Shown: positions 1,873 through 48,793 of the stretch, piece by piece | How positions within the stretch are numbered: the first letter of the stretch is position 1 | Layout of the letters: each line of letters starts with the position of its first letter | Assembly: GCA_009783695.1 (NCBI GenBank) | Contig: WRCY01000010.1 | Location: 1-50,584, forward strand | Length of the DNA: 50,584 bases | Source of the DNA: Oscillospiraceae bacterium | GTDB lineage: Bacteria > Bacillota > Clostridia > Oscillospirales > Ruminococcaceae | Direction: 5' to 3' | The notes under the pieces: model-generated | The model's input: the letters and a program-made list of their open reading frames with translations, nothing else | Databases searched by the model: none | What the model was told of the DNA's origin: nothing | Program-made: the position numbers and the translations under genes

Positions 1873-1931
1873 GAATCGGGGAAAACGTTGTTTTCATTCC
1901 GCATTTAGTTAAGAAAGGACTTATTGAAAAT
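1873..1931 (+). promoter_or_regulatory. Dispersed leader, copy 1 (transketolase C)
   Basis: A full copy of the window's recurrent leader: GAATCGGGG, hairpin GAAAAC-gtt-GTTTTC, spacer CATTCCGCATTTAGTT, ribosome site AAGAAAGGACTT, then ATTGAAAAT directly abutting the ATG at 1932. It lies between two genes that must be translated together. It is one of about 20 copies in this window. Confidence 0.85.
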
Positions 1932-2867
1932 ATGGAAAAGATTGCAACACGTATTAGTTATGGTAATGCATTAAATGAATTAGTGAAAAAGCGTCCCGAC
2001 CTGTTCGTACTTGACTCGGACGTATCCTGCGCGACTATGACTAATATTTTCCAAAAGGCAAACCCCGGCAGGCACTTCAACTGCGGGATTCAGGAATGTA
2101 ATATGCTCGGCGTCGCGGCGGGAATCGCGTCAACAGGGCGGCTCGTTTTCGCGAGTGCGTTTGCGATGTTCGCAGCGGGCAGGGCTTATGAAATAGCGCG
2201 CAACAGCATAGGCTATCCGAAGCTTAACGTTAAAATAGGTGCGACCCACGCGGGTATTTCCGTCGGCGAGGACGGCGCGTCGCACCAGTGCTGTGAAGAC
2301 ATTGCGCTTATGCGCACGATTCCCGGAATGACTATAATTAACCCCGCCGACGACGTCGAGGCGAAAGCAGCGGTAATCGCAATGGCTGATTACGAGGGTC
2401 CCACATACCTGCGTTTCGGCAGGCTTCCGGTACCTGTGTTCAATGACCCCGACACTTATAAATTCGAGGTCGGCAAGGGTGTAACTTTGCGCGATGGCGA
2501 CGACATCACAATTATCGCAACAGGCTTGCTCGTCTATCCCGCGCTTGAAGCCGCGGAAGAGCTTGTTAAAGAGGGCGTAAACGCCCGTGTAATAAACATT
2601 CATACAATCAAACCTCTCGACGAGCAGCTTGTGCTGAAAGCTGTAAAGGAAACCGGCAAAATCGTGGTCGCCGAAGAACACTCGGTCATTGGCGGGCTCG
2701 GCTCTGCCGTTGCGGAGCTTGTCGCGGAGAAATGCCCCGTGCCTGTTCACAAACTCGGCATTAACGACACATATGGTTATTCCGGCCCCGCTGTTCAGTT
2801 ATTGGAGGAATTCGGACTTACAACCGCAGGCGTTATTGCAACTATTAAAAAAGCAATCGGTAAATAG
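1932..2867 (+). CDS. Transketolase, C-terminal subunit
   Basis: The pyrimidine-binding and C-terminal domains of transketolase (311 residues), partner of the protein at 1008-1850. Visible features are the N-terminal RISYGNALNEL, FNCGIQECNMLGVAAGIA (pyrimidine domain with the catalytic Glu region), GATHAGISVGEDGASHQ, and a C-terminal transketolase domain starting near residue 180 (GKGVTLRDGDDITII). The ATG lies 12 bases beyond the AAAGGA of the dispersed leader. A terminator follows, closing the two-gene unit. Confidence 0.93.
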   Translation: MEKIATRISYGNALNELVKKRPDLFVLDSDVSCATMTNIFQKANPGRHFNCGIQECNMLGVAAGIASTGRLVFASAFAMFAAGRAYEIARNSIGYPKLNVKIGATHAGISVGEDGASHQCCEDIALMRTIPGMTIINPADDVEAKAAVIAMADYEGPTYLRFGRLPVPVFNDPDTYKFEVGKGVTLRDGDDITIIATGLLVYPALEAAEELVKEGVNARVINIHTIKPLDEQLVLKAVKETGKIVVAEEHSVIGGLGSAVAELVAEKCPVPVHKLGINDTYGYSGPAVQLLEEFGLTTAGVIATIKKAIGK

Positions 2868-2871
2868 TTTT

Positions 2872-2896
2872 AAGGGGGAAGTATTTCCCCCTTTTT
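2872..2896 (+). terminator. Rho-independent terminator after transketolase
   Basis: Stem AAGGGGGAA / TTCCCCCTT with loop GTAT, followed by a T run. It starts 4 bases after the transketolase stop codon. Confidence 0.9.
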
Positions 2897-2935
2897 ATGT
2901 ACAGAGAATTTATATAATGGGAAGGTACTTTATTA

Positions 2936-3427
2936 ATGGAAGCGATAATATTTTTGTTTTGTCTTACAATTCATAATATTGAAGAAGCTCTTTGGTTTAA
3001 CGATTGGCGAATAAAAAATATGCCTAATAAACGAAAAACATATAAGAAAGAATATTTTATTTTTTCGGTATTGGGTATAACAATTTTAGCATATTTATCC
3101 GTAGGATTATTTCTTCTTTTTCCTGATATTATTTACTTGGAATATATATTCATCGGATTTGTATGTGCAATGCTTATTAATACAATTATGCCTCATTTAC
3201 TGCTCACAATTATATACAGAGAATATTGTCCGGGATTATTTACAGGCTGTTGTTTATTAGCACCTTTTAATATTATTATTTTAGCTAAAACCTTAAATAA
3301 AGGTTTTAGTATTTCGGAAGTAATTATTTCAACTCTTATTGTTGGGGTAGTACTTCTTAGTTCTATTCCTATGTTTGAAATTATAGCGAAAAAAATACTT
3401 AAGAAAAAAGAAAAACAACAACTATAA
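2936..3427 (+). CDS. HXXEE-motif membrane protein
   Basis: A 163-residue membrane protein with four to five hydrophobic segments. The N-terminus contains IHNIEEAL, the His-x-x-Glu-Glu signature of the HXXEE family. Further on, a PHLLLTIIYREYCPGLFT stretch resembles the family's second conserved block (His, then R-x-Y-x-P-G). The function of the family is not known, although conserved acidic and His residues in membrane segments suggest metal binding. Starting at 2936 keeps the HXXEE motif; a later ATG at residue 29 would lose it. The gene is A+T-rich and stands between two operons. Confidence 0.65.
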   Translation: MEAIIFLFCLTIHNIEEALWFNDWRIKNMPNKRKTYKKEYFIFSVLGITILAYLSVGLFLLFPDIIYLEYIFIGFVCAMLINTIMPHLLLTIIYREYCPGLFTGCCLLAPFNIIILAKTLNKGFSISEVIISTLIVGVVLLSSIPMFEIIAKKILKKKEKQQL

Positions 3428-3480
3428 TTCAACTTCGCAAAATAAGCATTATCTAAATTTCAAAATCTCAAAAATATTTC

Positions 3481-3509
3481 TTGCAATTATTTCCGGATTA
3501 TGGTATAAT
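3481..3509 (+). promoter_or_regulatory. Promoter of the pyr operon
   Basis: TTGCAA (3481-3486), a 17-base spacer and TATAAT (3504-3509). The leader to the pyrC ATG is only about 30 bases and carries GAGGAG. There is no room for a PyrR-type attenuator, so control by that mechanism is unlikely here. Confidence 0.75.
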
Positions 3510-3543
3510 TAATTAATTTGAGTAAAATTGCCGAGGAGTCAAA

Positions 3544-4809: not shown

Positions 4810-4817
4810 GGTAATTA

Positions 4818-4898
4818 AAAGTTTGAAAATAAATAACATTGATTCGTGGAAAACGGCATTTTCATTTACATTTGGTGAAGAAAGGACTTAATGAAAAT
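4818..4898 (+). promoter_or_regulatory. Dispersed leader, copy 2
   Basis: It begins with AAAAGTTTGAAAATAAAT, then GATTCGTGG, hairpin GAAAA-cggca-TTTTC, AAGAAAGGACTT and AATGAAAAT, and ends at the ATG at 4899. In this copy ATTTTCATT and AATGAAAAT are a perfect 9-base complement that would enclose the ribosome site. Confidence 0.85.
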
Positions 4899-5342
4899 AT
4901 GGCGGATAATTTCTATAAGCACTGGTTTAAGGGTTTTGAAAATTTTGTTGTAAACCTTGATGATGAAAACAGAACAAATGTTTTTAAGGAATGTGGAAGA
5001 GCGTGCTCGGATTCATACACTAAGCAGGTTTATATTGAGGAGTATAAAAAGTCAAAAAGCATTGATGATTTTTTAGACCGTTTAAAAGTCAGATTCCCTG
5101 AAATTGGCTTTAATATAATGAAAAAAGATGAGATTATCGAGCTTAAATATAGCTATTGCGCGTGCGATTTGGTTAAGAACGGGTACATAAAGACAGCTTT
5201 GATGTGCGAATGTTCAAGGCAGAGTCTGCTTTATAACTGGAGCTCGGTTTTCGGTGAGGGCAATGTTACGGTTCAGCTGCATCAATCTATTCTTGAAGGC
5301 AAATCATGCTGCAAGTTCACTATAAATTTAAAGCAAACGTAA
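4899..5342 (+). CDS. Cysteine-rich small protein of unknown function
   Basis: A 147-residue soluble protein with cysteines spaced as in CGRACS, CACDL, MCECS and SCCKF, which suggests a metal or redox site. The start is set at 4899 because the upstream part of the open frame is simply the translated leader repeat. The C-terminal pattern (a Gly-rich turn, then C-x-F-x-I) loosely recalls small ligand-binding V4R-like or hydrolase-like folds, but that is a guess. It sits between pyrC and pyrF with 12 bases to pyrF, so it is co-transcribed with the pyrimidine genes. Confidence 0.7.
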   Translation: MADNFYKHWFKGFENFVVNLDDENRTNVFKECGRACSDSYTKQVYIEEYKKSKSIDDFLDRLKVRFPEIGFNIMKKDEIIELKYSYCACDLVKNGYIKTALMCECSRQSLLYNWSSVFGEGNVTVQLHQSILEGKSCCKFTINLKQT

Positions 5343-5354
5343 AGGAGAAGAACA

Positions 5355-6443
5355 ATGTCATTCGACCGTTTAATCGAAAAAATCGCAGAAACAGGGAACC
5401 CGACCGTAGTCGGGCTTGACCCGAAGCTTGAATACATTCCCGAGTTCATAAAACAAAAAGTCTTCGCCAAAAACGGCGAAAGCCTCAAGGGTGCGGCAAA
5501 GGCGGTTTTAAAGTTCAACAAGGGTATTATCGACGCGATTCATAAAGTCGTGCCGGCGGTAAAACCGCAGCTGGCTTTCTATGAAATGCTCGGTGTGGAG
5601 GGCATAAAGGCATTTCATAAAACTATTGAATATGCAAAAGCACGCGGTATGTATATAATCGCCGACGGAAAGCGAAACGACATCGGCTCGACTGCCGAGG
5701 GGTATGCGGCGGCGTATCTCGGGAAAGTGCAGGTCGGAGCGAACGAGTACGAGCCTTTTCCGGCGGACGCGCTGACCGTCAACGCCTATCTCGGCTCGGA
5801 CGGTATAACACCGTTCACGGATATGTGCAAAAAATATGATAAAGGAATCTTCGTGCTTGTAAAAACCTCAAATCCGTCTTCAAATGAGTTGCAGGACAGA
5901 ATATTAGATATTTCAATTTCTTCTGCAAAAGAACTTGCCGGTGGTATAAATGAGCGTTTAAATAACGGGCGGGAGATTACAAAAAACTGCGATAATTCAA
6001 AGAGCTTAGTTAATTGTTCATCGGGTCAATTGCAGGAAATAAATACAGGCAGCCCGCAGCTTATGAACGGGGAACTTGTATATGAAATTATGGGTCGCTT
6101 ATGTGAAATTTGGGGTAAAGATATAATGGGTAAATACGGTTATTCCGCAGTAGGCGCAGTTGTAGGCGCGACGTACCCCGAACAGATTAAAATAATGCGG
6201 GAAAAACACCCGCATACGTTCTTCCTGATTCCCGGTTACGGCGCGCAGGGCGGCAAGGCGGACGACTTAAAAGCCGCGTTCGACTCGCGGGGGCTCGGCG
6301 CAGTCGTGAACAGCTCGCGGGCGGTCATGTGCGCGTGGCAGAAAGAGAAGTGCGACGAGCAGGATTACGCCGGCGCTGCGCTGCGCGAGGTTATGCGAAT
6401 GAAAAATGAACTTATAAGTATAACGGGAGAGATAAAAATTTGA
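5355..6443 (+). CDS. pyrF: Orotidine 5'-phosphate decarboxylase, with insertion
   Basis: Converts OMP to UMP, the last step of the pathway. It belongs to the longer type 2 group: VVGLDPKLEYIP at residue 17, DGKRNDIGSTAEGY at about 98-111 with the catalytic Lys and Asp residues, and IPGYGAQGG for phosphate binding near residue 296. The 362 residues exceed the usual size of about 300. The excess is an A+T-rich stretch at about residues 186-238 (bases 5910-6070), after NPSSNELQ and before ELVYEIMG, where homologues have a short loop. An AAAGGAG site precedes the ATG. Confidence 0.93.
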   Translation: MSFDRLIEKIAETGNPTVVGLDPKLEYIPEFIKQKVFAKNGESLKGAAKAVLKFNKGIIDAIHKVVPAVKPQLAFYEMLGVEGIKAFHKTIEYAKARGMYIIADGKRNDIGSTAEGYAAAYLGKVQVGANEYEPFPADALTVNAYLGSDGITPFTDMCKKYDKGIFVLVKTSNPSSNELQDRILDISISSAKELAGGINERLNNGREITKNCDNSKSLVNCSSGQLQEINTGSPQLMNGELVYEIMGRLCEIWGKDIMGKYGYSAVGAVVGATYPEQIKIMREKHPHTFFLIPGYGAQGGKADDLKAAFDSRGLGAVVNSSRAVMCAWQKEKCDEQDYAGAALREVMRMKNELISITGEIKI

Positions 6444-6515
6444 AATTAAATACCGTTGAATCGGGGAAAACGACGCTTACATGCTGATTTAGTATAGAAA
6501 GGACTTATTGAAAAT
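6440..6515 (+). promoter_or_regulatory. Dispersed leader, copy 3 (carA)
   Basis: GAATCGGGGAAAACG, then a weakened hairpin (3' arm CTTACATG), followed by TAGAAAGGACTT and ATTGAAAAT ending at the carA ATG (6516). A TTG inside it would read TTG AAA ATA TGA, its stop overlapping the carA start as ATGA. Confidence 0.8.
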
Positions 6516-7595
6516 ATGAAAAAAAGAGCATGGCTGACACTGGAGGACGGCACGGTTTTTGAAGGGGAGAGTTTCGGCGCGGACGGCGAGTTAATCGGAG
6601 AGGTCGTTTTCACGACTTCCATGACCGGCTTTCAGGAAACGCTGACAGATTCTAATTATATCGGGCAAATCGTCGTGCAGACGTTTCCGCTTGCCGGCTG
6701 CCCCGGCACGAACAGCCACGACGACCTGTCGGATTACGGCGGCGCGGCGGGCTTAGTTGCTCGCGAATACAGCGAAATCGCCTCCAATTTCCGCTGCGAG
6801 GAAACCATTGACGAGTTCATGAAAAAGCGCGGAATCATCGGGCTTTGCGGAATCGACACACGTAAACTCACCCGGATTCTCCGCAGCAAAGGCACGATAA
6901 ACGGCATAATTTCCGGCACGGAGCCTGCGCAGGAAGTAACGGCAGAAACTCTAAGCAAGCTTAAAACATACTCGCCCGATATAACTCTAATCAGTGGTAC
7001 TGAAACAGTCACTCATGAAGCCGAAAACGCGAAATACAACGTCGCGCTGCTTGATTACGGACATAGAAAAAGCATAGTTACTCTGTTTAATAAGCTCGGC
7101 TGCAACGTAACTGTAATCCCTTTCACGGAAACCATAAACCCCGCAGATTACGACGGTATTATATTATCTAACGGCGCGGGAAATCCCGCCGAATGTGCTG
7201 ATGAAATCGAAGCCGTCAAGGCGCTTGTCGCCGCGAAGATTCCATTATTCGGAATCGGACTCGGACACCAGCTGTTGGCGCTCGCAAACGGCGGTACGAC
7301 GGCAAAACCGGGGCACGGACACCGCGGCGCGAATATCCCCGTAATTGACCTTGGGGCTGAATCCGGCAGAACCTTTATCACCGCGCAGAATCACGGTTAT
7401 GTTGTTATGAGCATACCGGAATCCGTTGGAAAAATCACGCACATCAATGCGAACGACAAAACCTGCGAGGCGATAAGTTATAAAAACATTCCCGCGCTGT
7501 CCGTGCAGTTTGTGCCGAGCGAAGAGGGCGGCGTGAACTCGACTGCATATTTGGCAGAAAAGTTTATAGAATTAATGCAGTCCGTCAAAAATTAA
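6516..7595 (+). CDS. carA: Carbamoyl-phosphate synthase small subunit with lost glutaminase residues
   Basis: The small subunit normally hydrolyses glutamine and feeds ammonia to CarB. The N-terminal domain (WLTLEDGTVFEGESFG, STEP-like dimer region GIDTRKLTR) and overall length of 359 are normal. In the amidotransferase domain, however, the nucleophile motif GICLGHQ reads GIGLGHQ (Gly248, codon GGA 7257-7259), the HPE motif reads FVPSEE (Val333, Ser335), and SNGPGDP reads SNGAGNP. All three triad positions are therefore lost while the frame is intact. By known family chemistry it should not use glutamine and may only support ammonia-driven CarB. Its 3' end overlaps the opposite-strand gene at 7572-7820. 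Confidence 0.93.
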   Translation: MKKRAWLTLEDGTVFEGESFGADGELIGEVVFTTSMTGFQETLTDSNYIGQIVVQTFPLAGCPGTNSHDDLSDYGGAAGLVAREYSEIASNFRCEETIDEFMKKRGIIGLCGIDTRKLTRILRSKGTINGIISGTEPAQEVTAETLSKLKTYSPDITLISGTETVTHEAENAKYNVALLDYGHRKSIVTLFNKLGCNVTVIPFTETINPADYDGIILSNGAGNPAECADEIEAVKALVAAKIPLFGIGLGHQLLALANGGTTAKPGHGHRGANIPVIDLGAESGRTFITAQNHGYVVMSIPESVGKITHINANDKTCEAISYKNIPALSVQFVPSEEGGVNSTAYLAEKFIELMQSVKN

Positions 7596-7820: not shown

Positions 7821-7852
7821 TGGCTTGCTCCTTTATATTTAATTTTAAATTC

Positions 7853-7916: not shown

Positions 7917-7941
7917 TAAACAAAAGGCGGTGTATAAAATT

Positions 7942-8169: not shown

Positions 8170-8192
8170 AAAAGAAAGGAACATTTGAAAGT
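8170..8192 (+). promoter_or_regulatory. Remnant of dispersed leader (carB)
   Basis: AAAAGAAAGGAACATTTGAAAGT before the carB ATG matches only the 3' part (ribosome site and TTGAAA-T) of the dispersed leader. The hairpin half is missing, as if the xre module had replaced it. Confidence 0.6.
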
Positions 8193-11484: not shown

Positions 11485-11564
11485 AAGTTTAAAAATAAAT
11501 GAAATTGAATCGGGGAAAACGAAACTTTTCATTTCTCGTTGGTGCAGAAAGGACATGGTGGAAA
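11485..11564 (+). promoter_or_regulatory. Dispersed leader, copy 5 (pyrK)
   Basis: AAGTTTAAAAATAAAT, then GAATCGGGG, hairpin GAAAA-cgaaac-TTTTC, CAGAAAGGAC and ATGGTGGAAA, ending at the pyrK ATG (11565). The frame is open through the leader, so an automatic call would start 22 codons too early. A GC-rich hairpin of the type GGGCGCGC..GCGCGTCC lies just upstream. Confidence 0.8.
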
Positions 11565-12383
11565 ATGCCCTACAAATGCGGCTCTTATCATATAATAGAA
11601 AAAACCGCCATTTCGGCGGGTGTATACTCGTATGGCATTTTATGCCCGGATGTTGCGGAAATCGCTGCTCCCGGGCAGTTCGTGCATATCAAAGTCGAGG
11701 GCTTCACTCTGCGCCGCCCTATTTCAATCTGCGATATTGACCGCAGAAACGGCAGCATCCGCATAGTTTTTGAAATCCGCGGTCACGGCACAAGAAAGCT
11801 CGTCGACGCAAAGGTAGGCGACAGCATAGATATGATTGCGCCGCTGGGCAAAGGCTTTACACTGCCTGACGACATTTCCCCCGACAGACGCGTTATAACA
11901 GTCGGAGGCGGAATCGGCGTTGCGCCTCTTTTTAGCGTAGCAGCTGCTTTTCGGGAAAACGCTACGGCAATCCTCGGTTTCAGAAGCTATGATAAGATTA
12001 TACTTGCCAACGATTTCAAGCAGAATGACGTCCACGTTATCACCTGTACTGATGACGGCAGCGTAGGAATAAAAGGCACTGTTACCGCGCCTTTGGAGGC
12101 GGAGCTCGTTAAGGGCGACGTGGACATGGTTTACGCATGCGGCCCCCAGCCGATGCTGGCAGCGATTGTCGGGATTTGTGAAAAAGCGGGCGTACCGTGC
12201 GAGGTTTCGCTTGAGCAGCGCATGGGCTGCGGCGTGGGCGCGTGCGCTGTTTGTGCCTGTGAAATAAAGCGTACATTAAATGACAGTGATGTTTCCGCAG
12301 AAACAGCGGGAGCCGAGACACTCGGTATGCTTATGGTTTGCAGGGACGGCCCTGTATTCAAGGGAGAGGAGGTAGTGCTGTAG
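11565..12383 (+). CDS. pyrK: Dihydroorotate dehydrogenase electron-transfer subunit
   Basis: The FAD and 2Fe-2S subunit of class 1B dihydroorotate dehydrogenase, passing electrons from PyrD to NAD. FAD binding shows as LRRPISICD near residue 48, nucleotide binding as VGGGIGVAPLFS and YACGPQPML, and the iron-sulfur ligands in EQRMGCGVGACAVCAC with a final Cys in MVCRDGP. The length of 272 is close to the family's usual size. The start is placed at 11565 because the upstream residues are translated leader. The stop TAG overlaps the likely GTG start of pyrD by one base. Confidence 0.93.
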   Translation: MPYKCGSYHIIEKTAISAGVYSYGILCPDVAEIAAPGQFVHIKVEGFTLRRPISICDIDRRNGSIRIVFEIRGHGTRKLVDAKVGDSIDMIAPLGKGFTLPDDISPDRRVITVGGGIGVAPLFSVAAAFRENATAILGFRSYDKIILANDFKQNDVHVITCTDDGSVGIKGTVTAPLEAELVKGDVDMVYACGPQPMLAAIVGICEKAGVPCEVSLEQRMGCGVGACAVCACEIKRTLNDSDVSAETAGAETLGMLMVCRDGPVFKGEEVVL

Positions 12384-16199: not shown

Positions 16200-16574
16200 C
16201 TACGGCTTTTTTTCAACCGTTTTCCTGTGAAAAATTTCCCGAAGCCCCACAAATACCAGCAGCCCCGCGAACAGCTTCCGAAGCAGCCCCTCATCAACAA
16301 CGCCAAGCAGCAGCGCGCCGCCCGCCACTCCAACCGCCCCGGCAATGCAAATCGGCGCAACAAGCTTCCACTCAATCAGCTTGTTTTTCGTGTGAATAAA
16401 CATCGAAATCAGCGCAATCGGCAGAAAGAACAGCAGGTTAATCCCGCCCGCCGCAACCTGCGCCGTCCCTGTGAAAACCGTCAGGTAAATAATCAGCACA
16501 AAACCTCCGCCCAGCCCCATAGAAGCCGTCACGCCCGTTAAAAACCCTGCAATTGCAATCCATAATAAACTCAT
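16200..16574 (-). CDS. Half-size TauE/SafE transporter, second half-like
   Basis: A 124-residue membrane protein with four hydrophobic segments. The opening GFLTGVTASMGLGGGFVLI matches the glycine-rich repeat that starts each half of TauE/SafE exporters (sulfite or other organosulfur anions). Normal family members have about 250 residues, so this is a single half. The partner half is at 16648-17010, and the two may form the full transporter as a heterodimer. It has its own copy of the dispersed leader. Confidence 0.85.
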   Translation of the reverse strand: MSLLWIAIAGFLTGVTASMGLGGGFVLIIYLTVFTGTAQVAAGGINLLFFLPIALISMFIHTKNKLIEWKLVAPICIAGAVGVAGGALLLGVVDEGLLRKLFAGLLVFVGLREIFHRKTVEKKP

Positions 16575-16647
16575 ATTTAAATAAATCCTTTTTTACCCGA
16601 GAAGTAAAAACATCGTTTTCCCGGCTCGGTAATTAATATAATCAAAC
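16575..16647 (-). promoter_or_regulatory. Dispersed leader, copy 6
   Basis: Minus strand: GAGCCGGG, hairpin GAAAAC-gat-GTTTTT, then AAAAAAGGATTTATTT ending at the ATG at 16574. It fills the gap between the two half transporters. The AATGAAAA start region is eroded to ATTTAAAT in this copy. Confidence 0.75.
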
Positions 16648-17010
16648 TTAAAAGAATAAAATTTTTACAGCAGATATAAGCACAACAATCCCGAAAATCC
16701 GCCGCAGCAGCGAGTTCGGGACTTTTTTAAGCAGCAGCGCGCCCAGGACTGCCCCCGCCACTCCCCATGGTACGTAAGACAGCGCAGTCTGCCACTCAAG
16801 GCTGCCGCGAAGCCCGTATGCAATCACCGACATAACGGACAGAAAAAAGATTACGGCGACTGATGTTGCATGGCTTTTTCTGGCTTCGAGCCCGAAAAGA
16901 CGCAGCATAGGCACGGCAATTACGCCGCCGCCCGAACCGAACAAGCCGTTCAGCAAGCCGCAAAGTGCGCCTGTCAGGGTTTTCATGTGCTTTTTAATAA
17001 ATTCTTTCAT
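16648..17010 (-). CDS. Half-size TauE/SafE transporter, first half-like
   Basis: A 120-residue membrane protein. LTGALCGLLNGLFGSGGGVIAVPML is the glycine-rich first-half signature of TauE/SafE, followed by ARKSHATSVAVIFFLS, a conserved second block. Three to four hydrophobic segments are visible. It is the upstream gene of the pair and carries a well-preserved leader. The substrate cannot be told from sequence; members export sulfite, sulfoacetate and related anions. Confidence 0.87.
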   Translation of the reverse strand: MKEFIKKHMKTLTGALCGLLNGLFGSGGGVIAVPMLRLFGLEARKSHATSVAVIFFLSVMSVIAYGLRGSLEWQTALSYVPWGVAGAVLGALLLKKVPNSLLRRIFGIVVLISAVKILFF

Positions 17011-17083
17011 ATTTTCATTAAATCCTTTTTACGAGCGGAGAATGAAAAGTGTTGTTTTCCCGATTTTATATCATTTATTTTCA
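17011..17083 (-). promoter_or_regulatory. Dispersed leader, copy 7
   Basis: Minus strand: ATTGAAAATAAAT, AATCGGG, hairpin GAAAA-caacac-TTTTC, TAAAAAGGATTT and AATGAAAAT, ending at the ATG at 17010. TTTTCATT and AATGAAAA are a perfect 8-base complement. Confidence 0.82.
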
Positions 17084-17091
17084 ATCGTATT

Positions 17092-21162: not shown

Positions 21163-21906
21163 CTAAAGCCGGAATATCGGCAAGGGTGTAAATTTATGCC
21201 GGCTGACTGCGTGCAGTCTGTCGATTTTTTGCTTTACGGCTTTGTCCCCACAAACTCCCTCGCGGATATACTTGTCAAGAACCTCGTAAGTGAAGCCAAA
21301 GTTTTCCTCGTCCGTTTTGCCGCAGAGCCCGTCGAGCGGCACCTTGCCGATGAATCTTTCCGGCAGTCCCGTTTCACACCCCACGGCTTTAACCTCCGTT
21401 ACCGTCAAGTCGGACAGCGGGCTGAAGTCGCCCGCCGAATCGCCGAACTTCGTCGCGTAGCCGACCCAGTCTTCGCTGAGGTTGCTGGTGTTCGCGACCC
21501 TGCCTTCGATAATGGCGCTGACAGCGTAAAGCGCAGTCATGCGAATACGTGCGGGCGTGTTGAAAGTCGCAGTATCGCTGAGTTTTAAATCGCCCGCTAA
21601 AATCTCATCGTATAAATTCTGCACCGGCTTTTCAATGTTAATCTCGATATATTCAATGCCGAGCGTTTTGCATAAGTCATATGAAACATCAATGTCATGC
21701 TGTTTGCCTTGCGGCATGAGCACGCCGAAAACGCGCTCCTTGCCGAGCGCCTCTGCGCAGAGCGCAGCGACGACAGAGCTGTCTTTCCCGCCGCTGATGC
21801 CGACTACGGCTTTGGTTTCGGGAAAGGCGTTATTTTTGAAATAATCTGCAATCCATTGCACTATCCGGTTTTTAGTTTCTCTTGCATTAAACATGATTAT
21901 TTTCAT
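21163..21906 (-). CDS. nadE: Ammonia-dependent NAD synthetase
   Basis: Amidates deamido-NAD to NAD with ATP. The PP-loop motif GISGGKDSSVVAALC starts near residue 37, and the middle shows TSNLSEDWVGYATKFGDSAGDF. At about 247 residues it is the short form without the nitrilase-type glutaminase domain, so it uses free ammonia. The start is uncertain among ATGs at 21918, 21906 and 21894; 21906 corresponds to the first ATG of the leader consensus, and 21894 gives MFNARETK. It follows pncA, whose product feeds the salvage route to NAD. Confidence 0.93.
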   Translation of the reverse strand: MKIIMFNARETKNRIVQWIADYFKNNAFPETKAVVGISGGKDSSVVAALCAEALGKERVFGVLMPQGKQHDIDVSYDLCKTLGIEYIEINIEKPVQNLYDEILAGDLKLSDTATFNTPARIRMTALYAVSAIIEGRVANTSNLSEDWVGYATKFGDSAGDFSPLSDLTVTEVKAVGCETGLPERFIGKVPLDGLCGKTDEENFGFTYEVLDKYIREGVCGDKAVKQKIDRLHAVSRHKFTPLPIFRL

Positions 21907-21962
21907 TAAACCTTTCATTCATAGAATCGAAACGAAACAAAGTTTCCCCGATTCGTTTTTAT
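21907..21962 (-). promoter_or_regulatory. Dispersed leader, copy 8 (nadE)
   Basis: Minus strand: GAATCGGG, hairpin GAAAC-ttt-GTTTC (both arms shortened together), GAATGAAAGGTTT, then AATGAAAAT. It starts one base after the pncA stop codon. TTTCGTT could pair with AATGAAA through one G-U pair. Confidence 0.8.
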
Positions 21963-22478
21963 TTAATCTCTAACCTCAACCTGACATGATTTCATGACTA
22001 ATATAGCGGCACGGTGAGCCACTTCCGAAACGCCCGCACAGCAGGCAGTGTCGACAATGATTTTCGTTTCCGGCAGCCTTGCTTTTAAAATTAAAGCGTT
22101 TGAAACCACGCATATATCCGTACAGAGCCCGCAAATCTCGATTTCATCGAAGCCGCCGCCGGCGATTTTTTCAGCAAGCTCAAGCGAGCCGAAGGTGGGT
22201 TTATTAAAGACATAGTAACCGCCGAAGTTGAGCTCGGGCGTGATTTCGTGCCCCGCCGTGCCGAGTATACAGTGCGGAACGGGAAGAAACCTGCCTTCCT
22301 GCGTGTTATAATAATCGACATCATGAGTGTCGCGTGTGAGTATGATTTTATCACCGTTTTGCTTATACTGTTCGATTTTCGCCTTAACGGCGGGCACGAT
22401 TTTCTGCGCCTGAGGCGAGCCGAGCGAGCCGGTGATGAAGTCAACCTGCATATCAATGACGAGCAAAAGCTTTTTCAT
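21963..22478 (-). CDS. pncA: Nicotinamidase (isochorismatase-fold hydrolase)
   Basis: Hydrolyses nicotinamide to nicotinate and ammonia. The 171 residues show the isochorismatase fold: LLLVIDMQVDF with catalytic Asp near residue 9, TRDTHD for metal binding, VPHCILGTAGHEI (typical of nicotinamidases), a Lys in FNKPTF, and the nucleophile Cys in CGLCTDICVVSNAL. The ATG overlaps the cutA stop as ATGA, implying coupled translation. Placement beside nadE supports an NAD salvage role. Confidence 0.87.
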   Translation of the reverse strand: MKKLLLVIDMQVDFITGSLGSPQAQKIVPAVKAKIEQYKQNGDKIILTRDTHDVDYYNTQEGRFLPVPHCILGTAGHEITPELNFGGYYVFNKPTFGSLELAEKIAGGGFDEIEICGLCTDICVVSNALILKARLPETKIIVDTACCAGVSEVAHRAAILVMKSCQVEVRD

Positions 22479-22792
22479 TTTACATAACCCTCAATCCATT
22501 TCAGATATTCCGGCAGTCCGTCAGTGAGCGGGATTTGCACTATCTCGGGAATATTATAACTGTGATTATTTTTAATAAGTGCAGAAATCTCTTCAAACAA
22601 CGAAGCTTTTGACTTCACAAATAGTAACACCTCGTTCCCGTCGCAGACTTTGCCATCCCAGGCATAAATGCTTTCAACTGTCATGATTTGTACGCAGGCT
22701 GCAAGCCGCTGTTCAACAAGCAGCTTTGCAGCAGCTTTTGCGGCAGTTTTATCGGGAAAAGCGGTGATGGTTATTGAGAATTTACTTTCCAT
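22475..22792 (-). CDS. cutA: CutA1 divalent-cation tolerance protein
   Basis: A small trimeric protein of the CutA1 family, with a ferredoxin-like fold resembling the PII signalling proteins. The 105 residues show the typical LAACVQI, ESIYAWDGKV, EVLLFVKSK, HSYNIPEIVQIPL and YLKWI blocks. Its role in copper tolerance is doubtful in most bacteria. The start at 22792 abuts a dispersed leader; the eight residues upstream are translated leader. The stop overlaps the pncA start. Confidence 0.93.
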   Translation of the reverse strand: MESKFSITITAFPDKTAAKAAAKLLVEQRLAACVQIMTVESIYAWDGKVCDGNEVLLFVKSKASLFEEISALIKNNHSYNIPEIVQIPLTDGLPEYLKWIEGYVK

Positions 22793-22872
22793 ATTTTCAT
22801 TATGTCCTTTCTTCATTAAAGGGATATGAAAACGTTATTTTCCCGGTTAAGCAGCTTTTGTTTTAAACTTAA
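22793..22872 (-). promoter_or_regulatory. Dispersed leader, copy 9 (cutA)
   Basis: Minus strand: AAGTTTAAAAC, CCGG, hairpin GAAAA-taacg-TTTTC, GAAGAAAGGACAT, ATGAAAAT, ending at the cutA ATG. It begins right after the guaA stop codon. TTTTCAT and ATGAAAA are complementary. Confidence 0.82.
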
Positions 22873-23895: not shown

Positions 23896-23917
23896 AAATT
23901 TAAATCAAAATACTCGT

Positions 23918-23980
23918 GAATCGGTAAAATGATGTTTTCATTTCTCTTTGATGAAGAAAGGACTTAATGAAAATACGAAC
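23918..23980 (+). promoter_or_regulatory. Dispersed leader, copy 10
   Basis: GAATCGG, hairpin AAAAt-gat-gTTTT, CTTTGATGAAGAAAGGACTT, AATGAAAAT. Here the first ATG starts a five-codon frame (MKIRT) whose TGA overlaps the ATG of the real gene at 23981. Confidence 0.82.
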
Positions 23981-25124: not shown

Positions 25125-25212
25125 GAATTAAACTTGACAATAAATAAAACTGAATCGGGGAAAATGTTGTTTTCATTTCGCATTTAATTGTTAAATGATT
25201 ATAATGAAACAG
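25125..25212 (+). promoter_or_regulatory. Dispersed leader, copy 11a (upstream of a pair)
   Basis: GAATTAAAC..AATAAATAAAACT, GAATCGGGG, hairpin AAAA-tgttg-TTTT, CATTTCGCATTTAATTG, ATAATGAAAC. It lacks the GAAAGGA ribosome site and is followed by a second copy after exactly 88 bases. Confidence 0.8.
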
Positions 25213-25291
25213 GAATTAAACCTAACAATAAATAAAACTGAATCGGGGAAAATATTGTTTTCATTCTGAATTTAATTATGAAAGGACTATA
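25213..25291 (+). promoter_or_regulatory. Dispersed leader, copy 11b
   Basis: Second copy of the tandem pair. GAATCGGGG, hairpin AAAA-tattg-TTTT, ATGAAAGGACTAT, then the gene's ATG inside AATGAAAAT. This shows that the first ATG of the leader can itself be the start codon. Confidence 0.85.
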
Positions 25292-25972
25292 ATGAAAATA
25301 GAACAAAAGTTCCCGTGCCTTTACACAAAGGAACAGGAAGAAAAGTTAAAAGACCATATTGAAAAGTATTTGGGTAAGAGCGTAGCCGTTTTTCGAGAGG
25401 AGCATATACCCGATATTAAAGTTGATATTCACCTTATTGCCCCCTGCGAGAGATATGCGGGTTATACGCTGGTGACAAGCGGCGCAGGTGCGTTTCGGAT
25501 GGACATTCCCGAAGATTATGAGCATCCCATCAATTCAAAGCGCGCTGAGTACATAATCAGGCTTCCCGAAAACTGGGAGTTCCCGGAGGATTTCAATAAG
25601 ACAACGGAAGAGATTGAGCCTGATGAAAACCTTTACTGGCCGCTGCGCTGGCTGAGAATCCTTGCGCGTATGCCGATTATCCATAAAGTATGGCTCGGCT
25701 GGGGGCATACCGTGCCGTGCGGAAGCCCGTTTGCCGAGAATACCGACCTGTGCTGTGTATTGGTCGAGATGCCGTATGTATTCGGAATCGGTATGTTTAA
25801 AGTTGATATAAACGCGGAGGAGCCGGTGCACTTTTATCAGCTTATACCTTTATACCGGGAGGAAATGGAGTATAAAATCCAGAACGGTACCCACGAGCTA
25901 ATGGAGATGTTTGACGACGACTTTTCCGATATTGTTGATATTAACAGGAAAAACTATTGCGCAGACGAATGA
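25292..25972 (+). CDS. Suppressor-of-fused (SUFU) domain protein
   Basis: A 226-residue protein with the SUFU-like pattern: VDIHLIAPCERYAGYTLVTSG near residue 45, RAEYIIRLPENW near residue 84, WPLRWLRILARMPIIHKVWLGWGHT near 118, and CCVLVEMPY. Bacterial SUFU-domain proteins are often immunity proteins against secreted toxins. No toxin gene is nearby, so that role is only a possibility. The 3' end overlaps the convergent flippase gene by 32 bases. Confidence 0.75.
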   Translation: MKIEQKFPCLYTKEQEEKLKDHIEKYLGKSVAVFREEHIPDIKVDIHLIAPCERYAGYTLVTSGAGAFRMDIPEDYEHPINSKRAEYIIRLPENWEFPEDFNKTTEEIEPDENLYWPLRWLRILARMPIIHKVWLGWGHTVPCGSPFAENTDLCCVLVEMPYVFGIGMFKVDINAEEPVHFYQLIPLYREEMEYKIQNGTHELMEMFDDDFSDIVDINRKNYCADE

Positions 25973-29968: not shown

Positions 29969-30436
29969 ATGGTGAAATCAATAAAAAAATCAAAAAACAC
30001 ACCGGTATCGCTCGCGGTTGATATTGCGAAGCTGTTTGATGCGCAGATGCGGGTTGAGATGCTCAGGAATGGCGCGAGAACGTCATACAAGCAGATTCTT
30101 CATTCGCTGTCCCGAAAAGACGGCGTAACCCAGCTTGACCTCGTAAAAGTTACAAAGCTTAAGGCGCCCACAATCAGCACAACTCTGCGCAATATGGAAA
30201 CTGCCGGCTTGGTTCGCCGCGAAACCGATAAAGACGATGCAAGGGCGACACGCGTTTACATAACCGAAAAGGGAAGAGAAACAGATAAAAAAATCCGCAG
30301 TTCAAAAACGAAAATTGAAAAAGCCTTTCATCTCAATTTAAGTGCGGAAGAAAAGGAGCAACTAATAATTCTTCTCGGCAAAATGAAAGAAAACATAAGC
30401 ATATCGGCTGATGAACTGCCGGTGGATGAAAGTTAA
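29969..30436 (+). CDS. MarR-family transcriptional regulator
   Basis: A 155-residue winged-helix regulator. The recognition part TQLDLVKVTKLKAPTISTTLRNMETAGLVRRETDKDDARATRVYIT-type sequence spans about residues 52-98 and ends in the wing with the usual D-x-R-A. Flanking helices form the dimer interface. AAGGAGG lies upstream of the ATG. Target genes are not evident: the next gene is convergent and the previous one is separated by element B, so it may act elsewhere or on itself. Confidence 0.92.
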   Translation: MVKSIKKSKNTPVSLAVDIAKLFDAQMRVEMLRNGARTSYKQILHSLSRKDGVTQLDLVKVTKLKAPTISTTLRNMETAGLVRRETDKDDARATRVYITEKGRETDKKIRSSKTKIEKAFHLNLSAEEKEQLIILLGKMKENISISADELPVDES

Positions 30437-30449
30437 TATAAAAGACTGC

Positions 30450-30504
30450 CCATCGGGGAAACGATGTTTTCATGCCGCATTTGTTAAAAAGGTTTATTGA
30501 AAAA
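30450..30504 (+). promoter_or_regulatory. Orphan dispersed leader, copy 12
   Basis: CATCGGG, hairpin GAAAC-gat-GTTTTC, GCCGCATTTGTTAAAAAGGTTT, ATTGAAAA. It ends against the stop codon of a convergent gene, so no plus-strand gene follows it. The ribosome site is degraded (AAAAAGG). Confidence 0.75.
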
Positions 30505-32445: not shown

Positions 32446-33495
32446 TCAGTTATTTGAAATTTCTTTGATTTTCTTAAGGATTTCATCGGGATTAGGCACG
32501 AAGCCGCCTTGACGTCCGTAGAATTCTACGGGCAGCTTAAACTCAAGCGCCATCTTAACGTCGTCGACCATCTGCCCCATCGACATCTCGGAAACAAGCA
32601 CGGCCTTTGCGTTCCCGGTGGCTTCTTTGAGCTGCTTCACGGGGAAGGGCCAGAGCGTCTGCGGGCGGAAGAGACCTGCGTTTATGCCCTCGGCGCGCGC
32701 CTTATCTACCGCGCTTCTTGCGACCCTCGCTGTCGAGCCGTATGCCGCTACTACAATCGTCGCGTCCTTGTCATATTCGGCGGCGGCTTCTGTTTCCGCG
32801 ATTTTTGCATAGCGCTCAAAGCGCTCGTTTATTTTTTCCTCTAACTTCAGCGGGTCTAAATAGAGCGAATTGATTATGTTTCTTTCGCGCTTATTGCCAT
32901 GACCGTATGCGCCGTAAGGATACTGAGCGGCATTGTTCTCAATTTCGCCGAAGCTCACGGGCTCCATCATCTGCCCGAGCAAACCGTCGGCAAGGATTAT
33001 AACAGGAGTGCGGTATTTTTCGGCGATTTCAAACGCCTTTACGGTCATATCGACCATCTCCTGCACTGAGTTCGGCGCGAGTGTGGGTATTTTCAAGTCA
33101 CCGTGCCCGATTGCCTTTGTCGCCTGGAAATAATCCGCTTGCGACGGCTGGATTGTGCCGAGGCCGGGGCCTCCGCGCTGGACATTTACGATTACGCACG
33201 GCAGGTCAGCGCCTGCGAGGTACGAAATGCCCTCGGATTTGAGCGATATACCGGGCGAGGAGGAGCTCGTCATGCAGCGCACGCCGCTGCCCGCGCAGCC
33301 GTAAACCATATGTATTGCGCCGATTTCCGATTCAGCCTGCACAAAAACGCCGCCGTCGATTTTCGGTAATGCTTTAGACATATAAGCTGTGATTTCATTT
33401 TGCGGCGTGATGGGATAGCCAAAGTAGCTCTTGCAGCCTGCGCGGATTGCCGCCTCGGCGCATGCCTCGTTGCCTTTCATTAAAACTTTGTTCAT
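32446..33495 (-). CDS. vorB: 2-oxoacid:ferredoxin oxidoreductase, alpha subunit
   Basis: The alpha subunit (349 residues). The start LMKGNEACAEAAIRAGCKSYFGYPITPQNE-type block, SSSSPGISLKSEG and the late VVAAYGSTARVARSA match the VorB/KorA group. Likely substrates are branched-chain 2-oxoacids or 2-oxoglutarate; sequence alone does not separate them. A dispersed leader lies between it and the ferredoxin gene, so its translation may be set separately from that of the other subunits. Confidence 0.92.
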   Translation of the reverse strand: MNKVLMKGNEACAEAAIRAGCKSYFGYPITPQNEITAYMSKALPKIDGGVFVQAESEIGAIHMVYGCAGSGVRCMTSSSSPGISLKSEGISYLAGADLPCVIVNVQRGGPGLGTIQPSQADYFQATKAIGHGDLKIPTLAPNSVQEMVDMTVKAFEIAEKYRTPVIILADGLLGQMMEPVSFGEIENNAAQYPYGAYGHGNKRERNIINSLYLDPLKLEEKINERFERYAKIAETEAAAEYDKDATIVVAAYGSTARVARSAVDKARAEGINAGLFRPQTLWPFPVKQLKEATGNAKAVLVSEMSMGQMVDDVKMALEFKLPVEFYGRQGGFVPNPDEILKKIKEISNN

Positions 33496-33549
33496 ATTTT
33501 AGTAAGTCCTTTCTGCACATCAGTGCTTTTAAACAACGTTTTCCCCGAA
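33496..33549 (-). promoter_or_regulatory. Dispersed leader, copy 13 (alpha subunit)
   Basis: Minus strand: CGGGGA, hairpin AAAC-gtt-GTTT, GTGCAGAAAGGACTTACTAAAAT, ending at the ATG at 33495. The hairpin's 3' arm has changed to GTTTAAAA and the start region to CTAAAAT, so the arm no longer matches the start. Confidence 0.75.
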
Positions 33550-33594
33550 AAGGAGGTATAGTTATTAAGTTTTAAGTTTAATTAAAGTAAGGCT

Positions 33595-38302: not shown

Positions 38303-38356
38303 TGCAAATTTTCTCCCTAATTAAATAAGTATAACATAAAAAATATAAAAAATCAA

Positions 38357-39382: not shown

Positions 39383-40712
39383 GAATAAACTCCGCTGACG
39401 TAAAGCTGTAGTATTCTCCCTCAAAGTTTAAATCGAATTTGCCGGTTTCACCGCGGCGGTTTTTTTCGATTATACATTCGCACCTGTTAGGGAACTCGGT
39501 TTCGGGGTTGAACATACTCTCCCTGTGCAGCATGAGCACGATGTCCGCGTCCTGTTCAATCGCGCCGGAATCGCGCAGGTCAACGAGCGTGGGGCGCTTG
39601 TCCTGCCGTTTCGCCGATTCGCGCGAGAGTTGGGAAGCAAGGATTACAGTGATTCCGAGCTCCTTCGCCATGATTTTGAGGTTTCTTGTGATTTCTGAGA
39701 TTTCAGCGTTCCTGTTCATATCGCGGCGGTTCAGTGACATGAGCTGCAAATAGTCGATTACCACCACGCTCACACCTTTTAGACGGCGCAGCTTCGCTTT
39801 CATCTCGCCGACAGAAACGTTCGGCGTGTCATCTATATAAATATCGAGCGAAGAGAGAAAATCGGTCGCGTCGCTGATGTTTTTCCAGCCGTTGCGGTCA
39901 ATCTCGCCTTTTCTCATCTGGTCGGTTGTAACGCGGGCTTCTGAAGCAAGGATTCGCTCCACAAGCTGATGGCGTGACATCTCAAAGCTGAACACGGCGA
40001 CCTTTCTGCCGCGGTATTTCTTCGCAACCTTTACGGCTACGTTAATGGCAAACGTAGTCTTGCCGGTACCGGGCCTGCCTGCAACGATGATTAAATCGGC
40101 GGGCGCGAAGCCGAAGATTTTCTTGTCGAGCGATTCAAATGAAGTGGCGATATACCTGCTTTCAAAAGCCTGCGGGTCGTCAGCGATTTCAGAAAGCTCC
40201 TTTACTTTCTCCAAAATCGTAGGTTTAATGGGGGTCAGCCCGACTATATCTTTTTCGCTTCGTATGCTGTAAATCTTGGTTTCGGCGAAGTCGAGCAGGC
40301 TTTGCGGTTCTTCCGTGCCGGCTCCGGCGAGGTTGAAAATCTCGTTGGAGGCGAACATGAGCTGCCTTACCATATATTTTTCGGCAATAATCGTTGCATA
40401 GCTCTCAATACTTGACGGGCTGATTGCAGATTCCATGAGCTTTGTGAGGTATAGCTTTGCGTCCGCCTGGCTGTCGAAAATATTTTTTCGGACGCAGTTC
40501 TCCATGACCGTGATAATATCAATCGGCTGCCCCGAAATGAACATCTGCATCATAACGCCGAAAATCTCGCTGTTGAGCCCGATGTGAAAGCTCTGTGTAC
40601 CGAGCTTGTTCGTAACGTCATTGATTAATTTGGAATCAAGCAGAATCGAGCCCAGCACGGCTTGTTCCGCGTCAAGGCTGTAGGGGAGAGTGGAGTTATT
40701 TAAATCTGCCAT
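39366..40712 (-). CDS. dnaB: Replicative DNA helicase DnaB
   Basis: The hexameric helicase of the replication fork. The N-terminal domain LPYSLDAEQAVLGSILLD and the RecA-like domain with Walker A AGRPGTGKTTFA near residue 208, VVVIDYLQLM (Walker B) and LRDSGAIEQDADIVLMLHR are clear. The 448 residues are normal and no intein is present. Three tandem leader copies precede it. It belongs to a minus-strand run gdpP-rplI-CYTH-dnaB-tilS. Confidence 0.97.
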   Translation of the reverse strand: MADLNNSTLPYSLDAEQAVLGSILLDSKLINDVTNKLGTQSFHIGLNSEIFGVMMQMFISGQPIDIITVMENCVRKNIFDSQADAKLYLTKLMESAISPSSIESYATIIAEKYMVRQLMFASNEIFNLAGAGTEEPQSLLDFAETKIYSIRSEKDIVGLTPIKPTILEKVKELSEIADDPQAFESRYIATSFESLDKKIFGFAPADLIIVAGRPGTGKTTFAINVAVKVAKKYRGRKVAVFSFEMSRHQLVERILASEARVTTDQMRKGEIDRNGWKNISDATDFLSSLDIYIDDTPNVSVGEMKAKLRRLKGVSVVVIDYLQLMSLNRRDMNRNAEISEITRNLKIMAKELGITVILASQLSRESAKRQDKRPTLVDLRDSGAIEQDADIVLMLHRESMFNPETEFPNRCECIIEKNRRGETGKFDLNFEGEYYSFTSAEFIHVNEY

Positions 40713-40981
40713 TTTTTCTTTATAATCCTTTCCGCACAGATGAGAACTTAAAACAACATTTTCCCCGATTTAGTGCCGGTTATTTCAAAGTTTTACCTAT
40801 GTCCTTTTGTTACTTAACTGTGAAAGAAAAGCTTCGTTTTCCCCGATTTAGTGCCGGTTATTTCCAAGTTTTACTCATGTCCTTTTGTTACTTAACTGTG
40901 AAAGAAAAGCTTCATTTTCCCCGATTCGGTGCCGGTTATTTCAAAGTTTTAACTATATTCTTTTTAGTTGTACGCGAAGTT
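40713..40981 (-). promoter_or_regulatory. Dispersed leader, three tandem copies (dnaB)
   Basis: The AATCGGGG block recurs with an exact 78-base period (plus-strand CCCCGATT at 40763, 40841 and 40919). The two distal copies are nearly identical and have hairpins GAAAA-(c/t)gaagc-TTTTC and AAAAGGACAT but no start codon. The copy next to dnaB has diverged in its lower part (GCGGAAAGGATTATAAAGAAAA) and serves the ATG at 40712. This 269-base gap holds no gene. Confidence 0.85.
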
Positions 40982-41581: not shown

Positions 41582-41584
41582 GAT

Positions 41585-42028: not shown

Positions 42029-42113
42029 TTTTATTTTCACTAAGTCCTTTCTTCACAAATGAATCATGAAAACAGCATTTTCCCGATTCAATTGTTTTAT
42101 TTTCAAACTTTTA
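42029..42113 (-). promoter_or_regulatory. Dispersed leader, copy 15 (rplI)
   Basis: Minus strand: AAAAGTTTGAAAATAAAAC, GAATCGGG, hairpin GAAAA-tgctg-TTTTC, GTGAAGAAAGGACTT, AGTGAAAAT, then AAAAATG. TTTTCAT and GTGAAAA pair with one G-U. Confidence 0.85.
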
Positions 42114-42119
42114 CTCCTT

Positions 42120-44078: not shown

Positions 44079-44091
44079 AGGTTCACTCCTT

Positions 44092-44125
44092 AATTGTCAA
44101 TTGTCAATTATACATTGTCAATTGT
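44092..44125. repeat. Intergenic AATTGACA simple repeat
   Basis: TTAATTGTCAATTGTCAATT, ATACATTGTCAATTGTT: repeated AATTGACA/ACAATTG units between rnj and gdpP, similar to 181-219. It contains no promoter or stem beyond its short palindromes. Confidence 0.6.
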
Positions 44126-44128
44126 TCG

Positions 44129-45970: not shown

Positions 45971-45987
45971 TTGTACCTCTATGATTT

Positions 45988-46043
45988 GGCCGAACTGCGT
46001 TCGACCTATTATGTAAGGGCGTTGTTTTTGCTTAAAACGCCCT
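45988..46043 (-). promoter_or_regulatory. Two stem-loops in the rnj leader
   Basis: GGCCGAAC-tgc-GTTCGACC (45988-46006, one G-U) and AGGGCGTT / AACGCCCT (46016-46023/46036-46043). Both lie between the promoter and the start codon, and neither has a T run on the minus strand. They could be part of autoregulation, known for other ribonuclease genes. Confidence 0.65.
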
Positions 46044-46065
46044 AAAAATTTTGACTAACAGTAAA

Positions 46066-46094
46066 ATTATACCAAATTCATAATTAAATGTCAA
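46066..46094 (-). promoter_or_regulatory. Promoter of rnj
   Basis: Minus strand TTGACA (46089-46094), 17-base spacer, TATAAT (46066-46071). The -35 box lies inside the end of the upstream gene. Confidence 0.88.
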
Positions 46095-48435: not shown

Positions 48436-48537
48436 CTTTTATCCATTCCTTCCCGGCATCTGTGTGCCGCCTTTATTTGGACAGTTGCGTTAATTAATAG
48501 TCTTACGCGATAGAGGGCGGTTTATTCAATATACCGT

Positions 48538-48594
48538 TTGACATTTTCGGAAATCTGTGATATGATTGTGATTCCGACAAAAATATCCGGAATC
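48538..48594 (+). promoter_or_regulatory. Promoter and inverted repeat before the ABC gene
   Basis: TTGACA (48538-48543), 17-base spacer, TATGAT (48561-48566), followed by GATTCCG (48570-48576) and CGGAATC (48588-48594), a 7-bp inverted repeat over the expected start site that looks like an operator. A further TATAAT-like box near 48622 is a weaker candidate. Confidence 0.65.
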
Positions 48595-48644
48595 TATTGA
48601 CTTTGACGTTACGTTATAGTTTATAATAGTATTGCGGGATGAAA

Positions 48645-48721
48645 AAGTTTGAAAGCAAATAATATTGAACCGGAGAAAACAAAACTTTTTATTTTCCGTT
48701 AATAAAGAAAGTACAAGGTGA
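48645..48721 (+). promoter_or_regulatory. Dispersed leader, copy 16a
   Basis: AAGTTTGAAAGCAAATAATATT, GAACCGGAG, AAAAC..CTTTT, TAAAGAAAGTACAAGG, TGAAAGT. It is the diverged first copy of a tandem pair (77-base period) with no start codon of its own. Confidence 0.72.
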
Positions 48722-48793
48722 AAGTTTGAAAACAAGTAAAACTGACAGGGGGAGAACGTTGTTTTCATTCCACTTTTGTGAAGAAAGGACTTA
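48722..48793 (+). promoter_or_regulatory. Dispersed leader, copy 16b
   Basis: AAGTTTGAAAACAAGTAAAACT, GACAGGGG, hairpin GAGAAC-gtt-GTTTTC (one G-U), GTGAAGAAAGGACTT, then AATGAGAAT containing the ATG at 48794. Confidence 0.82.

Follow-up and report, generated by a model that had tools for sequence, protein, structure and literature searches.

The window analysed here, i.e., the whole stretch of 50,584 nucleotides of contig WRCY01000010.1 (Oscillospiraceae bacterium, assembly GCA_009783695.1), belongs to a draft genome of 97 contigs (2.23 Mb, 94% complete; hereafter G000) and carries 19 copies of one short element, mostly located in front of genes with unrelated functions. The element is about 80 bases long and is laid out as AAGTTTGAAAATAAAT ... 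CGGGGAAAACG ... TTTTC ... AAGAAAGGACTTAATGAAAAT. Its left end reads TTG AAA ATA AAT ... and could open a small open reading frame (mini-ORF), while its right end carries a Shine-Dalgarno (SD) sequence of its own, AGAAAGGA, about 12 bases ahead of the ATG of the following gene. The 19 copies were used to build a sequence-only model (R1; sequence-only since RNAalifold gave no pairs), which scores them at 42.0-64.9 bits, the next-best match in the window reaching 9.7 bits.

On the forward strand, single copies precede the C-terminal half of a transketolase (1860..1930, 64.2 bits; gene start at 1932; Transket_pyr/Transketolase_C), an ORF without Pfam match (4823..4897, 64.9 bits; ATG at 4899), carA (6440..6514, 63.2 bits; ATG at 6516; CPSase_sm_chain), a pyrK-like gene (11489..11563, 64.1 bits; ATG at 11565; DHODB_Fe-S_bind) and a further ORF without Pfam match (23900..23973, 61.5 bits; ATG at 23981). 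The left end of the transketolase copy is degraded and lacks the TTG. The copy at 4823 has a TTG mini-ORF of 22 codons and a GAGG upstream, and the one in front of carA still has the old SD GGGAG upstream. In the relative G023, the carA and pyrK-like sites are empty. Two tandem pairs are also found on this strand. In the first, the distal copy (25134..25209, 58.8 bits) is followed by a proximal one (25223..25298, 58.7 bits) that precedes a gene whose protein (25292-25969, forward strand) has a SUFU (suppressor of fused) domain; the element's ATGAAAAT at 25292 is apparently used as the start of this gene and would replace the start seen in G023. The second pair (distal copy 48649..48723, 45.1 bits; proximal copy 48726..48799, 64.3 bits, with a TTG mini-ORF of 22 codons) precedes an ABC transporter gene (ATG at 48806; ABC_tran).

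On the reverse strand, copies precede nadE (21900..21971, a diverged copy, 42.0 bits; NAD_synthase), cutA (22794..22867, 61.2 bits; ATG at 22792; CutA1), a gene for a vorA-type 2-oxoacid:ferredoxin oxidoreductase subunit (33497..33568, 44.9 bits; ATG at 33495; POR_N, PFOR_II) and rplI (42034..42106, 61.1 bits; Ribosomal_L9), where AAAGGAG is retained upstream. Three tandem copies stand before dnaB (ATG at 40712; DnaB): a proximal (40714..40789, 57.1 bits), a middle (40792..40867, 53.4 bits) and a distal one (40870..40945, 51.8 bits), the last being near-identical to the middle copy. At 16200-17010, also on the reverse strand, a TauE/SafE protein is split into two half-size genes in swapped order, with one element each: the upstream gene (17010-16648) covers positions 130-236 of the TauE profile and is preceded by the copy at 17012..17084 (47.3 bits), and the downstream gene (16574-16200) covers positions 2-112 and is preceded by the copy at 16576..16645 (44.7 bits). 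A single copy on the forward strand (30433..30503, 44.4 bits) has no co-directional gene behind it, which agrees with the orphan placed at 30450 by an earlier sequence-only reading of this DNA (the original prediction).

The original prediction had counted about 20 copies in the window; the element is confirmed by these 19 copies and by 189 more in the sampled rest of the genome. The remnant that it proposed at 8170 remains unproven: this SD-like stretch (8170..8192, forward strand) gave no R1 match on its strand, G023 has a similar native SD there, and its membership in the family is not confirmed. Against shuffled sequence, the two motifs first proposed gave 15 matches (largest shuffle 13) and 23 matches (largest shuffle 20). 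Since R1 scores are circular for the 19 training copies, independent sequence was searched: 20 other stretches of G000, 388,802 bases in all, hand-picked rather than random and taken partly from contigs with known matches, so that the density may be biased upward, gave the 189 further matches (E<=0.01), and a whole-genome search gave at least 190 matches with 150 of 2,483 candidates scored. In the window and the 20 stretches together (439,386 bases), nhmmer delimited 200 copies grouped in 125 arrays, of which 81 are single, 24 double, 10 triple, 9 quadruple and 1 quintuple, i.e., 44 arrays consist of 2-5 tandem copies. Extrapolation from the density in the window (19 per 50.6 kb) and in the sample suggests a genome total of around 800-1000 copies. 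The most repeated 16-mer in these 439 kb, TGAAGAAAGGACTTAA, occurs 61 times, versus 8 occurrences of the top 16-mer in 400 kb of G023. The G023 stretches (L134-L153) contain a palindromic repeat around GGGAACGCATTAATGCGTTCCC, whose 16-mers occur up to 8 times in the 400 kb.

Genes were predicted with a hexamer script (401 ORFs, 83% coding). An ORF of 50 codons or more begins between -8 and +11 relative to the element end in 111 of the 121 arrays that have sufficient sequence downstream; 103 of these ORFs begin with ATG, and the commonest offset is one base past the model end (55 arrays). The same is true of 10.8% of 4,000 random intergenic sites and of 19.1% of random sites anywhere. Among the 10 exceptions are ORFs that are short or may be broken, a copy that precedes a terminator-like hairpin, and the orphan of the window, at 30443. 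As for orientation, 117 of the 121 arrays with a known downstream gene share its direction, and none lies wholly inside a predicted gene, the largest overlap being 0.47 of the array. The placement at start codons and the orientation with the following gene, both announced by the original prediction, thus hold across the 439-kb sample; the location mostly between operon genes, which it also noted, is no special feature, since genes with an element have a co-directional upstream neighbour in 75 of 94 cases and other genes in 180 of 227, which equals the genome baseline. In total, an element stands at the predicted start, or at most 150 nt upstream of it, in 105 of the 323 genes scored.

The comparison with G023, whose transketolase is the closest among 30 relatives (93% identity; 89% for the sister species G012 and 88% for G017), indicates where the element is inserted. 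Counterpart genes in the sampled 400 kb of G023 were available for 19 of the 125 arrays. The element was found in none of the 19 (75 nt inspected each), and 13 of them show, by reading, a plain SD-spacer-ATG. The clearest case is carA, with GGAGAAATAAAAATATGAAC in G023 versus GGGAGAGATAAAAAT, the element and ATGAAAAAA in G000. Because of these empty sites, the insert can be placed downstream of the native SD of the gene and upstream of its ATG. By inspection, no clear target-site duplication was seen at the empty sites, and the element ends, AAGTTTGAAA and TGAAAAT, are not inverted, so that terminal inverted repeats are lacking. A duplication of TA and IS605-like tetranucleotide targets were considered on the flank profiles and rejected.

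The sequences at both ends of the element are consistent with this position. At the right end, AGAAAGGA complements the tail, CACCTCCTTTCT, at the 3' end of the 16S rRNA of the genus member G014; the 16S gene was not found in G000, G012 or G023. At the left end, an SD 4-mer ends 5-12 nt before the element TTG in 49 of 86 left flanks (200 mononucleotide shuffles: mean 12, maximum 20), 39 of the 125 arrays having been dropped because of a truncated left end or a stretch edge. The SD-TTG distance has its mode at 8 nt, the same as at the starts of element-free genes (SD in 102 of 218). In the sister species G012, whose copies are young, 24 of 31 first copies likewise have an SD ahead of the TTG at the distance expected for a start codon (300 shuffles: mean 5.5, maximum 12).

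Reading frames were analysed in the 121 of 200 copies that are full-length enough. The TTG frame meets an early stop in only 16 of the 83 copies with a start, versus 105 of 121 and 104 of 121 in the other two frames, and it thus stays free of early stops in 67 of 83 copies in G000 and in 32 of 34 in G012. The stop falls inside the last 26 nt in 60 of the 83 copies; in G012, 29 of the 34 mini-ORFs stop near the end, 2 stop early and 3 run past. Two main lengths are found: mini-ORFs of 22 codons, whose TAA directly precedes the gene, and mini-ORFs of 18 codons, whose TGA directly precedes AGAAAGGA. Counted back from the element end, the commonest stops end at 6 nt (34 of 99) and at 19 nt (18 of 99), upstream of the ATG. 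A conserved coding peptide was ruled out at the amino-acid level by the synonymous share and the flat entropy profile given below. The frame seems to stay open with an irrelevant product, which would fit selection on the act of translation, or on nothing.

Taken together, these data make it probable that the element is a mobile mini-cistron inserted one-way between the SD and the ATG of its target gene, most often directly before the ATG. Ribosomes would start on the element TTG using the old SD of the gene, read a short peptide whose sequence is immaterial, and stop near the element SD or just before the ATG, where re-initiation, or fresh initiation, would follow. Both the TTG initiation and the coupled or fresh initiation at the ATG are inferred. 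Insertion would thus be cheap, and the element could persist as a selfish passenger at the point where a gene is most sensitive. The portable translation-initiation element of the original prediction is therefore retained in part: that it is portable, sits at start codons and carries a ribosome-binding site is supported. It does not, however, look like a selected regulatory leader added upstream, because it is inserted between SD and ATG, has been copied recently in the sister species and occurs in only some species of the genus. The original prediction had also missed the mini-ORF that the TTG opens at the left end.

Several observations weigh against this reading. The placement counts rest on script-predicted, non-curated genes, and 6 of the 19 G023 counterparts lack a clear SD-ATG or an aligned start. 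The breakpoints are not exact: a first AAGT is constant in seven identical G012 copies and is not seen at carA, AAG(T) in the left flank being probably the element's own end, as judged from these flanks. The G012 loci recovered by an exact-pattern search favour ATG flanks, the pattern itself containing ATG; the five G012 copies found by R1 all show TATG. No SD 4-mer is present at 5-12 nt in 37 of the 86 left flanks, only 11 of the 19 window copies keep the left-end start codon, the frame of 2 of them closing after two codons, so that a third or more of flanks and window copies lack some part of the anatomy. The share of stops near the element end was matched by 1 of 500 column permutations, a control that ignores kinship among copies. 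Among codon differences of a single base, the fraction that is synonymous amounts to 0.237 for the TTG frame and to 0.337 and 0.340 for the two others, and entropy is near-equal across codon positions (0.78, 0.73 and 0.72 bits); because no constraint is detected at the codon level, translation of the mini-ORF is presumptive. Finally, the core CGGGGAAAAC, unusually well kept also in diverged copies and species, is better conserved than a pure passenger requires. The central block CGGGGAAAACG (e.g., 1876-1886 in the window) is also kept in the subfamilies of several species, with neither a fold nor a codon constraint to account for it.

Some of these points would be expected if the element were a portable ribosome-binding site and nothing else, supplying AGAAAGGA with its spacing, the left TTG being accidental and untranslated. 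This alternative is possible, yet doubtful on balance. It agrees with the lack of amino-acid-level constraint in the TTG frame, with the 8 of 19 window copies that lack a left-end start codon and with partial G012 copies that retain the tail. On the other hand, it leaves unexplained why the TTG stands at a normal SD distance in so many left flanks of both species, why the TTG frame alone is mostly open, and why the large majority of G012 mini-ORFs end near the SD or the ATG.

The distribution of the element bears on its mobility. A search of 41 genomes with R1 (E<=0.001, 116 candidates scored per genome) identified six carriers, G000 included, all from one genus, with at least 130 matches in G000, 115 in G012, 115 in G006, 50 in G020, 5 in G003 and 1 in G023; G017 gave no match among its 116 scored candidates. 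R1 matches are also present in the metagenome-assembled genome Pal332_bin5. When 297 genomes of the family were searched less deeply, with 16 candidates scored in each, only G000 matched. Seven copies in the sister species G012, each on a contig of its own and with flanks of its own, are identical, and the element must therefore have moved recently; the genes behind these copies were judged from their sequences to be unrelated. By reading, five orthologous genes carry the element in both G012 and G000 with different subfamilies, as a result of repeated insertion, of replacement or of concerted change. Copies are more alike within arrays (0.87 identity) than between them (0.70), and the nearest copy lies in the same array in 40 of 58 cases. 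Arrays therefore grow largely by local duplication, and repeated independent insertion is disfavoured as their main source. A longer subfamily (94-96 nt), in which an additional hairpin-like stretch occurs (e.g., GCTTCGTTTTAAAATGAAGC), was noticed at L159:3639-3734, L156:3769-3862, L177:2592-2687 and L179:5321 (reverse strand). In G012, two other palindromic repeats, around CCAATAAACCGGTTTATTGG and TTTAAATTGAAACTGTGGAACAGTTTTCAATTTAAA, are located beside or inside element copies (L163, L183, L182, L187, L195 and L154).

The element is also found in viral sequences. Six IMG/VR loci contain the exact pattern, and five of them have R1 matches. Two of these have clear head and tail genes, L209 (9.3 kb) with 12 copies and L205 (13.3 kb) with 6, several of which precede phage structural genes. 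Either the element enters phages of these hosts, or phages ferry it between hosts. By reading, 7 of 12 genes of L209 have an element, a small sample in which the share is above that of the host (105 of 323). Exact-pattern matches in Paludibacteraceae, Eubacteriales STE_11, UBA55, Gracilibacteria and the sixth IMG/VR locus (L206) were attributed to chance, as they gave no R1 match; a Verrucomicrobia record, which reached only 13.6 bits, was also rejected. One query copy (window 4811-4903) had no match in the phage and plasmid collections.

Repetitive extragenic palindromic (REP) sequences and bacterial interspersed mosaic elements (BIMEs), associated with REP-associated tyrosine (RAYT) transposases of the Y1 type, are short, carry an inverted repeat and occur in many dispersed copies, and miniature inverted-repeat transposable elements (MITEs), such as Correia, RUP and BOX, are small non-autonomous elements dispersed near genes. 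REPs are not, to our knowledge, known as start-codon insertions. An element of REP or MITE type, moved by a transposase with sequence-defined targets and left at start codons by later selection, would account for the short, dispersed copies, for the many repeated 16-mers and for the inverted repeat seen in some single copies. We consider it improbable. No Y1 transposase (PF01797) was detected in G000, G012, G006 or G003, a search that did not extend to DDE or serine/tyrosine recombinase families, and G020 has one marginal match, barely above the cut-off; with this enzyme missing from four of the five carriers tested, a REP/RAYT identity was rejected. The lack of terminal inverted repeats and target duplication upon inspection, together with the strict orientation and start-codon placement, sets the element apart from MITEs. 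Moreover, selection hardly explains why copies are missing from harmless intergenic spots, and insertion upstream of the SD would harm less. Among the partial matches listed, no pair of left and right halves flanking a gene, as expected for an autonomous parent, was found, in a search that was not exhaustive.

A regulatory leader (RNA-binding or riboswitch-like) controlling a regulon is very unlikely. It would explain that the core CGGGGAAAAC is kept across diverged copies and species. Nevertheless, the element precedes about a third of scored genes, with unrelated functions, is nearly absent from the nearest relatives, belongs to different subfamilies in front of the same genes in two species, and also precedes phage structural genes. 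A consensus fold is equally lacking: RNAalifold gave no pairs on 19 or on 150 copies, on which ground a structured RNA was rejected, and of 8 copies folded singly, only 2 stand out clearly from their shuffles by a better fold (z of -1.9 and -2.3), so that the small hairpin of the original prediction finds no support as a consensus structure. Rfam (4227 families) gave no match at gathering score in the window. As for retro-insertion by a reverse transcriptase acting on mRNA, a target that would naturally produce both start targeting and co-orientation, its chances appear slight indeed, since RVT_1 was not detected in the carriers G000, G006, G020 and G003 (incomplete genomes) and is present in G017, where no element was found, and in G023, with its one copy, i.e., its distribution does not track the element.

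The targets of the element might be found via translation signals, either the SD and start codon on the mRNA or initiation complex, or pairing of its anti-SD strand with target SDs, with a mobilisation involving neither a Y1 transposase nor a reverse transcriptase. The element would then be directed to initiation sites at genome scale, in bacteria and phages. We put this forward as a speculative and rather unlikely proposal.

The closest known parallel that we could identify comes from mycobacteria. Mycobacterial interspersed repetitive units (MIRUs) were reportedly described by Supply et al. in 1997. According to a review (PMC12548453), MIRUs are repeats, apparently mobile, that have start codons as their insertion sites; they contain an ORF whose coupling to the gene, at -4 spacing, softens the effect of insertion. 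Another source (PMC2734929) gives units of 40-100 bp at 41 places in H37Rv. As far as these descriptions go, both elements are short dispersed units with a variable number of repeats, apparently mobile, located at start codons and with a small ORF that is coupled, in the present element presumably, to the gene. In the element studied here, insertion at start codons and co-orientation are found in 111 and 117 of 121 arrays, a small ORF leading to the gene is suggested by the open frame of most copies in both G000 and G012, and tandem arrays of varying size are present within one genome. The two differ in that the -4 stop/start spacing was not observed, stops lying 6 or 19 nt before the element end, and in that the present element has its own SD, reuses the host SD for its TTG and ends upstream of the ATG. 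It also differs by its abundance, with 200 copies in roughly a fifth of a single genome versus the 41 places given for H37Rv, and by its presence in phages. It thus appears to be MIRU-like in its working without being itself a MIRU, a distinction drawn from descriptions and not from sequence alignment. The claim of the original prediction that no described family matches is correct for Rfam at gathering score, but MIRUs, as portrayed in PMC12548453, are a described functional analogue. The same source mentions bicistronic-design leaders, in which a short ORF likewise brings ribosomes to the next gene; these are engineered and not mobile. Our literature search, whose coverage left out most subscription papers, returned no account matching the element itself.

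The element provides a large natural experiment, with many native genes that have a small cistron between SD and ATG and clean empty sites in a near relative. This would make re-initiation, SD spacing and the coupling of short ORFs testable on native genes. Gene callers can also be misled by the element, through in-frame extensions such as KKGLNEN. More generally, the element is an example of a mobile element surviving at the most sensitive site of a gene, and its likeness to the mini-cistrons of MIRUs suggests a wider, perhaps convergent, class.

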